Part shown: positions 11,094 to 14,296 of the stretch, piece by piece
Layout of the letters: each line of letters opens with the position of its first letter
Position numbering within the stretch: the stretch's first letter is position 1
Assembly (NCBI GenBank): GCA_002842695.1
Contig: PHDT01000002.1
Coordinates: forward strand, 62,001-126,000
Direction: 5' to 3'
Length of the DNA stretch: 64,000 bases
Source: Bacteroidetes bacterium HGW-Bacteroidetes-10
Lineage (GTDB): Bacteria > Bacteroidota > Bacteroidia > Bacteroidales > UBA932
Position numbers and translations under genes: made by a program
The notes under the pieces: generated by a model
The model's database searches: none
Seen by the model: only the letters and a program-made list of their open reading frames with translations
What the model was told of the DNA's origin: nothing

Positions 11094-12452
11094 ATGGCAC
11101 AAAAACCTTCAATCCCAAAAGGGACAAGAGATTTCGGACCCGCAGAGATGGCCGGCAGAGACTATATTTTCAACACCGTACGCAATGTGTTCCGACATTA
11201 CGGATATGCTCCAATTGAGACTCCGTCAATGGAAAATCTCTCGACCCTGCTTGGTAAATACGGGGAGGAGGGAGATAAACTGCTGTTTAAAGTTCTCAAT
11301 TCCGGCGATGCATTTGCCGGAGTAACTCCGGAAATGCTGGGAAACAGCAACTCACTCTCTGTGAAGGTTTGTGAAAAGGGATTAAGGTATGACCTTACTG
11401 TTCCCTTTGCCCGTTTTGTGGTTCAGCATCAGAATGAGCTGGTTTTCCCTTTTAAGAGATATCAGATTCAGCCCGTATGGAGGGCAGACCGTCCGCAGAA
11501 GGGGCGTTACCGTGAGTTCTACCAGTGCGACGTAGATGTGGTTGGAAGTAATTCACTCATCAATGAGCTGGAGTTAGTTCAGATTGTAGACGATGTCTTT
11601 GGAAAACTGAATATTGGAGTAACAGTAAAAATCAACAACAGAAAGGTTCTTTCAGGAATAGCCGAGGTTTCCGGACACCCTGACAAACTGATTGATATTA
11701 CAGTTGCCATTGATAAAATAGACAAGATTGGACTGGATGCCGTTAAGGCCGAACTCCTCTCAAAGGGGCTGGACAATGATGCTCTCGCAGTTATTGATCC
11801 TATCCTTAACCTCAGCGGAACAACCGCAGAAAAGATATCAGCAATGAGACCAATTCTTGCAAAATCTGCCACAGGAACAAAGGGTCTTGATGAACTCGAG
11901 GAGCTCTTTACATTAATCTCTGCAGCAGAGATCAGTCAGGAGACAGAACTGGATCTGTCGCTTGCTAGGGGTCTTAATTACTACACAGGCGCCATCTTTG
12001 AGGTTAAGGCAAATGATGTTCCTATGGGAAGTATTTGCGGAGGCGGACGTTACGATGACCTTACAGGTATCTTTGGCCTGCCGGGTGTCTCGGGAGTTGG
12101 TATCTCATTTGGAGCAGACAGAATTTATGATGTACTCTCTGCTCTTAACAAGTTCCCTGGTGATGCAGTTGAGGGAACCAAAGTTCTCTTTACAAACCTG
12201 GGCGAAAAAGAGGTACTCTACACAATTCCTGTTGTAAAAAAGCTCAGGGCTGCTGGTATTGCTGCCGAAATCTATACTGACACAACCAAACTCAAAAAAC
12301 AGTTCGACTACGCAGACAAAAAGAAAATCCCTTTTCTGGCAATTGTTGGAGAGGATGAGCTTGCAAATGGCAATGTCAGCATAAAGAATCTGGCAACAGG
12401 TGAACAAAAGAAGGTTGATAAAGAGCAGGTTGTAACTTATTTTACAATTTAA
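11094..12452 (+). CDS. hisS: Histidine--tRNA ligase
   Basis: This 452-residue class II synthetase charges tRNA-His. The N-terminus [12 protein letters not shown] is the family hallmark. Motif 2 is [20 protein letters not shown] (about 126-145). The histidine-A motif is [15 protein letters not shown] (about 288-302), and motif 3 is [11 protein letters not shown]. The C-terminal anticodon-binding domain spans about 360-452. Length and all motifs are intact. It ends 44 bp before the initiator tRNA gene, which has its own promoter. Confidence 0.96.
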
Positions 12453-12496: not shown

Positions 12497-12569
<73 letters not shown>

Positions 12570-12576
12570 CAAAATG

Positions 12577-12607
12577 AAAGCAGATCAATTTTGATCTGCT
12601 TTTTTTT
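12577..12607 (+). terminator. Intrinsic terminator of tRNA-fMet
   Basis: AAAGCAGATCAA and TTGATCTGCTTT form a stem of up to 12 bp with a very small loop, followed by an unbroken T run to 12607. It begins 8 bp after the tRNA end. Confidence 0.85.
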
Positions 12608-12628
12608 GTAGCGGAGACTAAGTGTTTA

Positions 12629-12731
12629 CCGTACTTCGTGCGGAAGGAGGCACGCCCTCCAGGCTTAAAGCTCTCTTCGAGAGCCCGCCTTCCGGGCGGC
12701 CGGCTGAAGCCGGCTCGCCTGCAAGCAGGCG
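12629..12731. repeat. Tandem array of six short GC-rich hairpins
   Basis: Six inverted repeats follow each other almost without gaps: 12629-12643 (CCGTAC/GTGCGG), 12646-12660 (GGAGG/CCTCC), 12670-12684 (GCTCTC/GAGAGC), 12685-12699 (CCGCC/GGCGG), 12699-12714 (GCCGGCT/AGCCGGC) and 12716-12731 (CGCCTGC/GCAGGCG). Loops are 2-5 bases, three of them beginning TTC. Arms differ from hairpin to hairpin, so it is not a tandem duplication. The stretch is far richer in G and C than its AT-rich right flank, and I see no long reading frame in it. It lies beyond the tRNA terminator. Role unknown; a structured RNA or a REP-like extragenic element are both possible. Confidence 0.7.
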
Positions 12732-12875
12732 AAAAATTGAGTCCGTATCAACATCCCTTTCAAGAAAAATCATCAAGTTTAATTAACTGATATACTTAGA
12801 TATCTAAGATTAAAATCTATTGTAATTTTTAATAATTAGCTATCTTTATATCAGAAATTATCAAAACTGTTTTTT
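12732..12875. promoter_or_regulatory. AT-rich upstream region with palindrome and probable promoter
   Basis: This stretch holds a perfect 14-bp palindrome, CTTAGATATCTAAG (12795-12808), and a possible promoter: TTG at 12820-12822, an 18-bp gap, and TATCTTTA at 12841-12848. The palindrome just upstream of the -33 position could be an operator. The element precedes the unknown gene at 12876. Confidence 0.35.
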
Positions 12876-13379
12876 ATGAATAAAATTCTTCTCCTTTTGA
12901 CATTGTCAATTATAAGCAGAGTTGCTTATTCTCAAACAAACAATGATGTTTATTTTGTATTTACATCGATTGATACCTTAAAAAAAGGTTTCGTGTATCG
13001 AAATGATAAAATAAAATTAGACACTAAAACACTACAGTACAAACATCAGCCATTAGAATTTGTTTTCAGTTTTAAAATGTATAATCGCGTATCATATTGG
13101 CACTTTCAACGTGTAGTACCCAAGAGAGGGGAAAAAGAAGTAAATGAAATTGATAAGCACCTAGTCGTTGAAAAACCAATTAGTTTTTTAGATACGATAA
13201 ATTACTATGATTGGGATGATATCAAAGATTATGACCACACAAAATGGGGACCAATAACTAATAACTATCTTTTTAACCGGGATAAGAATTTAAGGGTCTT
13301 TTTAATTGATAGAAGGGATATCAAAGATGGAAAAATTAAAATGTATCAAGTTAGAGATATGACGACACCAAAATATTAG
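12876..13379 (+). CDS. Secreted protein of unknown function, AT-rich (167 aa)
   Basis: I do not recognise a family. Residues 1-19 are a signal peptide (MNKILLLLTLSIISRVAYSQ). The mature part is rich in Lys, Asp, Tyr and Asn, with no cysteine or membrane segment. Motif-like segments are YFVFTSIDTLKKGFVYRND and NYYDWDDIKDYDHTKWGP. Base composition is visibly more AT-rich than the neighbouring core genes, and it follows a tRNA gene and hairpin array, so recent acquisition is plausible. It is convergent with the next gene, and a shared hairpin terminator lies between them. Confidence 0.6.
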   Translation: MNKILLLLTLSIISRVAYSQTNNDVYFVFTSIDTLKKGFVYRNDKIKLDTKTLQYKHQPLEFVFSFKMYNRVSYWHFQRVVPKRGEKEVNEIDKHLVVEKPISFLDTINYYDWDDIKDYDHTKWGPITNNYLFNRDKNLRVFLIDRRDIKDGKIKMYQVRDMTTPKY

Positions 13380-13413
13380 ATTAATACTTTTATTATTAAA
13401 TATTGCAATAATG

Positions 13414-13453
13414 AAGAGGGAGACTAAATTTTCTTTTACTCTCCCTCTTTTAT
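13414..13453. terminator. Hairpin terminator between convergent genes
   Basis: AAGAGGGAG (13414-13422) pairs with CTCCCTCTT (13441-13449) across an 18-base loop. It is followed by a short T run on the plus strand. It would end the gene at 12876 and possibly the minus-strand gene ending at 13482. Confidence 0.6.
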
Positions 13454-13481
13454 TTTACATTGTGACAAATTCAAATCATAC

Positions 13482-14084
13482 TTAAAATACTATCCCAACT
13501 CGCACATGTGCCGACCTGTACTGTGGTTTTTGTAAGAAATCCATTCCACCAAATGTATCGGGAGTAGAGATGTTCTGATGAACATAGTTTAAAGACATCA
13601 TTATGTCCAGCGCCCGGGATATTTTGAATTTAAAACCAATCTCGGGATTAATCATAATTCCTCCTTCCCATTCACCAGGCACAGATCCGCCACCTTTGAT
13701 TCTTATTGTGTGACCAACACTTATACCGGTGTAAAAGGTATTTCTCTTTTTCAAAAAATAAAACTTAGTATTAAAAAAAAGTGGAAGAGCATTAAAACTG
13801 GCAAACGAACTCTCCTTATACGTGTAATTTTCAAGGCCGATGCCCAGTCCCATAAACAATTTATCCTTATATACGAGTCCATGCAGTGTTCTGAGGCTAT
13901 GACCGAAAATTTCTTCGTTTACAGACATTCTGTTCCCATGAGCTTCGTCAGTCCATAAATTATAATTTGATATCCCCATCATATAGCCATAATTCACATC
14001 CCCTCTGTACTTAAAATTTTTTTCCTGACATAATGAGGGAATCGTGAGCAGCATAAACGCTAAAAAGAATAAATTTGTTTTCAT
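13482..14084 (-). CDS. Putative outer-membrane beta-barrel protein (200 aa)
   Basis: No named family is recognised with confidence. Residues 1-19 are a signal peptide ending PSLCQ. The mature protein alternates hydrophobic and polar residues in strands typical of an 8-10 strand barrel (KLFMGLGIGLENYTY, NTFYTGISVGHTIRI, ALDIMMSLNYVHQ). It ends in AHVRVGIVF, with the terminal phenylalanine used for barrel insertion. It is AT-rich like its convergent neighbour and seems part of the same islet. The 212 bp upstream (14085-14296) hold no gene; they are AT-rich with a T run of 14 near 14170. Confidence 0.6.
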   Translation of the reverse strand: MKTNLFFLAFMLLTIPSLCQEKNFKYRGDVNYGYMMGISNYNLWTDEAHGNRMSVNEEIFGHSLRTLHGLVYKDKLFMGLGIGLENYTYKESSFASFNALPLFFNTKFYFLKKRNTFYTGISVGHTIRIKGGGSVPGEWEGGIMINPEIGFKFKISRALDIMMSLNYVHQNISTPDTFGGMDFLQKPQYRSAHVRVGIVF

Positions 14085-14296
14085 AGAATTAATTTTATTG
14101 TTTATAAATGTTTGAAATTATTAAATCAATGATTCAAAATGATTTATATTAAGCAATGTACTTCTTATTTTTTTTTTTTTCAAAATTTATGTTTAAGATA
14201 TTTAGTTATCAATGTAAATTTGATGTCCTTTTAAATGAGATAGATGCGAAAGTATTGAAGAAAATATCAAAAGTGTCCGGCTAAAAATATATAATT

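Follow-up and report, generated by a model that had tools for sequence, protein, structure and literature searches.

The window analysed here, a stretch of 64,000 nucleotides from the genome of an uncultured Bacteroidales bacterium (G000, of genus g1), carries a compact array of hairpins downstream of the genes for histidyl-tRNA synthetase and tRNA-fMet. The features of the locus are listed below with their window coordinates; several of them are compared with a dispersed repeat of G027, a genome of a sister genus.

11094..12452, + strand: hisS (histidyl-tRNA synthetase), the upstream neighbour (Pfam PF13393, E 9e-36, and PF03129), used as a clock for divergence
12497..12570, + strand: tRNA-Met(CAT), read as the initiator tRNA-fMet (ARAGORN, Rfam tRNA); in relatives, phages use its 3' end for attachment
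12560..12618, + strand: 59-nt palindrome of tRNA 3' end, terminator and inverted copy of the tRNA end, at the position of hairpin A of the G027 repeat
12608..12618, + strand: inverted copy of the tRNA 3' end (GTAGCGGAGAC), 11 bases, directly after the terminator
12619..12628, + strand: linker TAAGTGTTTA, where the G027 repeat commonly has TTGTGGTTTA
12629..12643, + strand: hairpin H1, 6 bp including one G-U, loop 3, equal to hairpin B of the G027 repeat (direct reading and fold)
12645..12653, + strand: conserved motif AGGAGGCAC, aligned with the G027 repeat
12646..12660, + strand: hairpin H2, 5 bp, loop 5, located where the G027 repeat has hairpin C (direct reading, scan and fold)
12670..12684, + strand: hairpin H3, 6 bp, loop 3 (direct reading, scan and fold)
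12685..12699, + strand: hairpin H4, 5 bp, loop 5 (direct reading and scan; four of five pairs in the fold)
12699..12714, + strand: hairpin H5, 6 bp, loop 4, overlapping H4 at base 12699; shortened or missing in G021, L216, G024 and G020
12715..12732, + strand: hairpin H6, 7 bp, loop 4; absent in G021, L216, G024 and G020
12876..14084, no strand assigned: variable stretch with two ORFs, 12876-13379 (+) and 13482-14084 (-), neither with a Pfam match

Six GC-rich hairpins after tRNA-fMet, without a common arm sequence and in AT-rich surroundings, had been claimed in an earlier note. Direct reading and a hairpin scan bear out all six at 12629-12732, and their arms do differ; the G+C content is 69% at 12629-12731 vs 22% at 12736-12900 and 31% at 12571-12628. 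The hairpins are closely packed as described, but H2 and H3 are parted by a 9-nt linker (12661-12669), so that the six are not all adjacent. The scan, which demanded exact pairing, stems of at least 5 bp with at least 60% G+C, loops of 3-5 and no overlaps, scored four hairpins with a total of 24 bp of stem at 12625-12736. Among 2000 dinucleotide shuffles the longest total stem was 21 bp, short of the observed 24, and a single shuffle attained four hairpins; elsewhere in the window, 112-nt stretches taken in steps of 28 all scored lower. The minimum-energy fold of 12560-12760 contains all named pairs of H1, H2, H3, H5 and H6 and four of the five of H4; its z of -9.9 for the 201 nt of array and flanks owes much to the terminator palindrome. 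Folded alone (+ strand, 12625-12735), the array gives a z of -3.1 and prefers an alternative fold that keeps only H3, H5 and H6.

On the sequence itself we agree with the earlier view that this is not a CRISPR array, which is ruled out by the differing arms and the absence of spacers, and not a single terminator, the T run sitting in the preceding hairpin at 12575-12607. The locus resembles an intrinsic terminator in that the palindrome at 12560-12618 contains that of the tRNA, whereas the six hairpins are followed by no T run on the + strand. With Rfam covariance models at the gathering cut-off, the tRNA was the sole match in the window and the array fell in no known family; a search of nine loci at E<=1 returned three tRNAs above the gathering scores, five weak matches below them and no family for the array. 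Plasmid and phage collections held no homologue of the array at E<=0.01. Equally dense hairpin clusters were absent from a further 235 kb of G000 and from 200 kb of the g1 genome G010, and 200 kb of G027 contained two, both belonging to that genome's own repeat (L078).

The inverted copy of the tRNA end had been overlooked in the earlier note and was found from the fold. Together with the tRNA end and the terminator, its 11 bases make up the single 59-nt palindrome. With no or one mismatch, the inverted copy is present at six of seven array-bearing loci, the exception being G012, and at none of 12 array-free loci examined from the 19 non-carriers in g1 (Fisher p 0.0003, calculated on rows that are not independent). 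In G010 it makes a palindrome with 31 bp per arm and one mismatch; copies are also seen at L003-L006 and L216. On the other side of the array, the roughly 1.5 kb (12740-14290) that separates it from the next small ORF (window 14297) is absent in G020, where the equivalent small ORF directly follows the remnant of the array.

BLASTN against the own genome and its relatives, a check suggested earlier, revealed one copy of the array in G000 and one site in g1. Six of the 25 g1 genomes, G000 included, have one match each, 3' of tRNA-fMet; hisS adjoins the array in all five genomes whose hisS was read, and the contig of G020 begins inside the tRNA. H6 and part or all of H5 are missing in G021, L216 and G024, and the array of G020 is reduced to H1. 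In this way four of seven carriers have H5-H6 shortened or missing, with one such loss common to G021 and L216. The array is missing from G003, which is 96% like the related G021 beyond this site, and G022 is another non-carrier among close relatives.

Wider searches were made with patterns and models. A pattern search of genome contigs gave 21 stretches, of which six were looked at: two belong to g1 (L057, from G012, and L059, from G021), and L051, L053, L055 and L060, when read, hold no such array. An order-wide covariance model search, with 16 candidates per genome scored among the matches listed, matched one genome of 393, the window's own. A mismatch pattern made of hairpin B and the motif matched 10 of 99 relatives (five g1 arrays, G027 with four matches, and one match each in G006, G038, G043 and G048), and its reversed control gave five matches. 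The family-wide motif pattern had matches in 68 of 398 genomes. Within g1 these were four arrays and 17 other matches vs eight for the reversed control; outside g1 and G027 there were 57, by eye no more than for the reversed control. Among 30 motif loci that were fetched, an exact hairpin of at least 5 bp precedes the motif only in L146 and L147, both known arrays, by a test of exact pairing that misses two true arrays among the 30 (L137 and the window's L142).

In its opening part, TTTA-hairpin-AAGGAGGCAC-hairpin, the array matches a repeat of G027, a single-contig genome of 2.2 Mb. Seventeen weak loci of other genera (L027-L043) were read by eye and rejected as homologues, being coding or other hairpin islands, except L031 and L043, which led to G027. 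When 398 genomes were searched by BLAST, G027 came up with E-values of 0.0014 and 0.0097; lower values (6.5e-4 to 9.2e-4) were obtained for four genomes that, on reading, showed no such unit. By eye, other hairpin-rich stretches (GGGGGCTAGGCCGCCCCC, GCCGGCTGATGCCGGC and others) in similar order are found in genus g22 of the same family (L028, L029, L030, L039 and L041); L028-L030 may be one locus in three g22 genomes, and L039 and L041 look like other loci.

The G027 unit consists, in order, of hairpin A with the loop ACAAAG, a linker that is commonly TTGTGGTTTA, hairpin B, (R)AGGAGGCAC and hairpin C. Loop and linkers are nearly constant, and the stems take many complementary sequences. The window shows this order and spacing as GTTTA-hairpin-(R)AGGAGGCAC-hairpin, with single arrays departing at few positions. 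Hairpin A with ACAAAG is absent in the window, where the tRNA-terminator palindrome takes its place; this loop is not common to both genera, and hairpins H3-H6 showed no counterpart in G027.

Hairpin B stands before 14 of the 22 exact AGGAGGCAC sites in G027 and not before the remaining eight. At E<=0.01, a covariance model trained on 12 rows, seven of them from G027, matched G027 at 36 places and G242 at one; the 37 remaining genomes of the 39 in that genus had no match. We read 32 copies in G027, namely 29 of the 36 model matches, one more via L122, and L113 and L114, which were found by the motif. Sought as an exact hairpin, hairpin B is present in all 32 copies, in which its stem has six sequences (what counts as a seventh is a shortened form), a pairing that is partly built in because the copies were gathered by the motif or the hairpin-B model. 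Hairpin A lies outside the covariance model. Its ACAAAG loop is found in 28 of the 32 copies, and 210 of 216 positions are paired over 24 distinct flank pairs; 5000 shuffles with the same register freedom gave a mean of 119 paired positions (sd 8, maximum 151). The directions of the genes flanking the copies show no preference (crude ORF call, 31 of 32 loci placed), which disfavours a function at gene ends in G027. Four near-identical copies lie within 2 kb at L122-L125 (G027:C1:959650-961573), near an ORF beginning MKRILGLDLGTTSIGWALVNEA whose product we take to resemble Cas9.

A profile built from 17 G027 copies, without any g1 sequence, had as its five best matches in 543,099 g1 bases the five g1 arrays, with E-values of 9e-6 to 7e-4 (window 1.2e-4) and the next match at 0.18; as G027 was chosen by eye for its likeness to the array, these values are optimistic and cross-genus values need discounting. 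Hairpin B was aligned across the genera (seven G027 and five g1 sequences) and compared with 500 shuffles by five measures. In paired cells, in cells with changes on both sides (13) and in covariation score the alignment exceeds all 500; in two measures it does not rise above the shuffles (two-sided-change pairs 112/500, further pair types 238/500). Judged from these likenesses, common descent of the g1 array and the G027 repeat appears quite probable.

Within g1, the covariation analysis that had been proposed earlier could be run and found only two pair cells that change on both sides. Both are in H5 of G012, one of six rows, and 63 of 500 shuffles score as high. Cells are paired to 91.8% vs 91.1% in the shuffles, and the measures are equalled by 63 to 500 of the 500. 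Some changes in H1, H3 and H5 keep the pairing as G-U on the + strand.

The divergence of the array was set against that of hisS. G000 and G010 are 73% identical in hisS (third positions 46%) and agree in 73 of 80 array columns (91%). G010 and G024 are 99.2% identical in hisS (third positions 98.4%) and agree in only 69 of the 80 columns (86%); three of these eleven differences come from the truncation in G024, the linker accounts for three and the body for five, against about one expected there from the hisS third-position rate. In nine of ten genome pairs the arrays are 81-91% alike over the 80 columns and the hisS third positions 43-48% alike. In the hisS tree the five carriers used, the non-carrier G022 and two rows intended as outgroup form one group. 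The carriers are not one clade (four changes, bootstrap 3-4, with the starred branches forcing only one change) in a tree of mostly weak forks, in which 231 of 500 shufflings of the carrier labels do equally well. The array copies in g1 do not follow the species and their history is discordant with hisS, a discord that rests mainly on one close assembly pair at a palindrome (G010 and G024) and could in part stem from hypermutable hairpins or assembly errors.

In relatives, phages use the 3' end of tRNA-fMet as attachment site, as observed for G785 and not for the window itself. G785 is an IMG/VR provirus of 44,363 bases (L216/L226), and the array lies just outside its right end. A 21-bp direct repeat, TCCTGTCTCCGCTACTAAAAA, which includes the end of tRNA-fMet, is common to its two ends. 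The full tRNA is found at the end opposite the array, adjoined by a tyrosine integrase (PF00589 E 9e-12; PHROG integrase), and a head-maturation protease is encoded elsewhere in the provirus (PHROG). An integrase 90% identical to that of G785 is encoded at the same tRNA end in a second viral contig. At E<=10, searching the entire G785 record at the DNA level gave no second copy of the array, and four array-sequence patterns located it in one IMG/VR contig only, again G785, a second match (L217) not lying in such an array. Related proviruses at the 3' end of tRNA-fMet (L226, L228) have an arm motif, GGGACACAAACGGGACAC, between the tRNA and the integrase gene.

This phage arm, GGGACACAAACGGGACAC, persists beside the tRNA in G010 and G022 (two of 25 genomes) and in altered form in G003; no remnant of it was found beside the tRNA in G000. 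The terminator stem of G022 is that of the provirus arm. In G010 the array has the tRNA on one side and what is left of the integrase-side phage arm on the other, so that arrival with a phage is possible. Prophages seem to have come and gone at tRNA-fMet, and their decay there could explain losses of the array.

RAYT-like Y1 proteins are encoded in 10 of 12 genomes tested, including the repeat-free G003, G022 and G050, and none was found in the carrier G020 (82% complete genome). There is no Y1 match on the array's contig in G000, and g1 arrays share a contig with Y1 only in the single-contig G010, more than 150 kb apart. A scan of 20 of 34 Y1_Tnp loci, with about 1.5 kb on each side where the contig allows, found none beside the unit; a motif match accompanied by a single 5-bp hairpin turned up within an ORF (L203), and L196 and L204 each showed a loose cluster of hairpins. 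The seven Y1 matches of G027 are 4.0 to 65 kb from the nearest repeat copy, and the four Y1 proteins compared with NCBI's model for the REP-associated transposase match it below its cut-off. With no Y1 gene beside a copy at the loci scanned, a RAYT as adjacent mover was rejected. At about 1780-2110 of L196, in G027, tandem repeats (GATAGAATAACAG and similar, minus strand) are located directly upstream of a RAYT-like gene.

The options of a REP-type array or a transposon trace, raised in the earlier note, stand in part. The array begins like a dispersed palindromic repeat and lies at a site that is a phage hot spot in relatives; a classical REP is unsupported, given the one copy in G000, the lack of a GTAG/CGTC tag at the foot and the lack of a Y1 match on the same G000 contig. 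With slightly better than even confidence, we read the array as a single copy, resident and in partial decay, of a REP/MITE-like element that is defined by its structure, is moved in trans and here sits at a hot spot of phage integration. In order, the element would have a long palindrome, a linker with GTTTA as its last bases, one hairpin, (R)AGGAGGCAC, another hairpin and then more of them. It would be mobile and non-autonomous, its folded strand being recognised as single-stranded DNA through the constant unpaired bases, probably by an enzyme acting in trans, and it would have no function for the host. Arrival, decay and deletion of prophages at tRNA-fMet would swap, truncate or remove the array. 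As each g1 carrier has a single copy, no movement is visible in g1. That the repeat represents a fold-defined class of mobile DNA, in which stems are interchangeable, constant loops and linkers keep the register, a recombinase moves the single strand and the tRNA-terminator palindrome has been adopted as first hairpin, strikes us as distinctly improbable.

The main rival to the mobile repeat is a conserved RNA, likewise among the options of the earlier note: a structured non-coding RNA of g1, read through from the tRNA or started near it, and kept by selection. Such an RNA would fit the likeness of the arrays in nine of ten pairs despite the far lower likeness of their hisS third positions, as well as the two-sided changes in H5 of G012 and the G-U-keeping changes in H1, H3 and H5. 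However, the array differs far more than hisS between G010 and G024, which is unlike the behaviour expected of a vertically inherited, constrained RNA. The truncation or loss of H5-H6 in four of seven carriers, the loss of nearly everything in G020 and the absence of the array from the close relatives G003 and G022 also speak against it, and pairing and covariation within g1 are not above shuffles. Considering further that the array is in no Rfam family and that the terminator palindrome parts it from the tRNA transcript, we regard a conserved RNA as unlikely.

We find it quite unlikely that the array is a piece of a prophage or integrative element using tRNA-fMet, carried in the attachment arm and left after decay. 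Phage attachment at this tRNA, the position of the G010 array between tRNA and integrase-side arm remnant, and an array divergence that departs from that of the host are in line with this explanation, but in G785 the array is outside the prophage, beyond the right attachment site, and the search of that record at E<=10 gave no second copy. Moreover, the IMG/VR patterns place the array in that one contig only, and the copies in G027 are dispersed. A mutational by-product, whereby template switching during replication builds and repairs hairpins with neither element nor function, would leave unexplained why loop, linker and spacing are constant at 28 to 32 sites of G027 and why two genera have the motif in common, and seems very improbable, even though the inverted tRNA-end copy and the long palindrome of G010 look like its products. 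It predicts stems that change as whole matched arms, in keeping with the mechanism described in PMC8794818. Because template switching may rewrite stems in this manner, covariation alone is no proof of selection.

Classical REPs carry a GTAG or CGTC tag at the hairpin foot (PMC3733652), and Bacteroidetes have RAYT subclasses 2.4 and 2.6, of which 2.6 goes with atypical secondary structures (PMC6006769). The G027 repeat is REP-like in being short, palindromic, dispersed and present in many copies, the hairpin foot of which has constant unpaired bases, and the RAYT-like Y1 proteins in most genomes tested are a further likeness. It differs from REPs in the foot, which is TTTA in the window and GTTTA-like in G027, plus AGGAGGCAC, rather than GTAG or CGTC; in stem changes by matched arms, several hairpins per unit and the lack of a Y1 gene beside a copy; and in the single copy of the window's genus, against 36 matches in G027. 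The MITE BrickBuilt of Porphyromonas gingivalis is likewise a short, non-coding, dispersed element of Bacteroidota, presumably moved in trans, whereas the present repeat, likened to it by form, seems defined by structure rather than sequence. Integron attC sites are folded single strands with variable stems and constant unpaired bases, features that the present repeat has as well, but no cassette array is seen around the present array. With phage attachment sites it has in common the tRNA end, which is the phage attB in relatives, but the six hairpins are outside the 21-bp attachment repeat. We regard the repeat as a variant of the dispersed palindromic repeats that lacks the REP tag, and a literature search recognised no published description of it.

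If the array is indeed a copy of a structure-defined mobile repeat, Bacteroidales carry palindromic repeats overlooked by sequence-based repeat finders and by REP definitions, since stems that are rewritten while the architecture stays would let such repeats escape sequence-based finders. They would offer a natural system to separate structural selection from template-switch hairpin repair, and tRNA-fMet would be marked as an active exchange site. The locus would also serve as a warning against taking high conservation together with covariation next to a tRNA as proof of a functional RNA.
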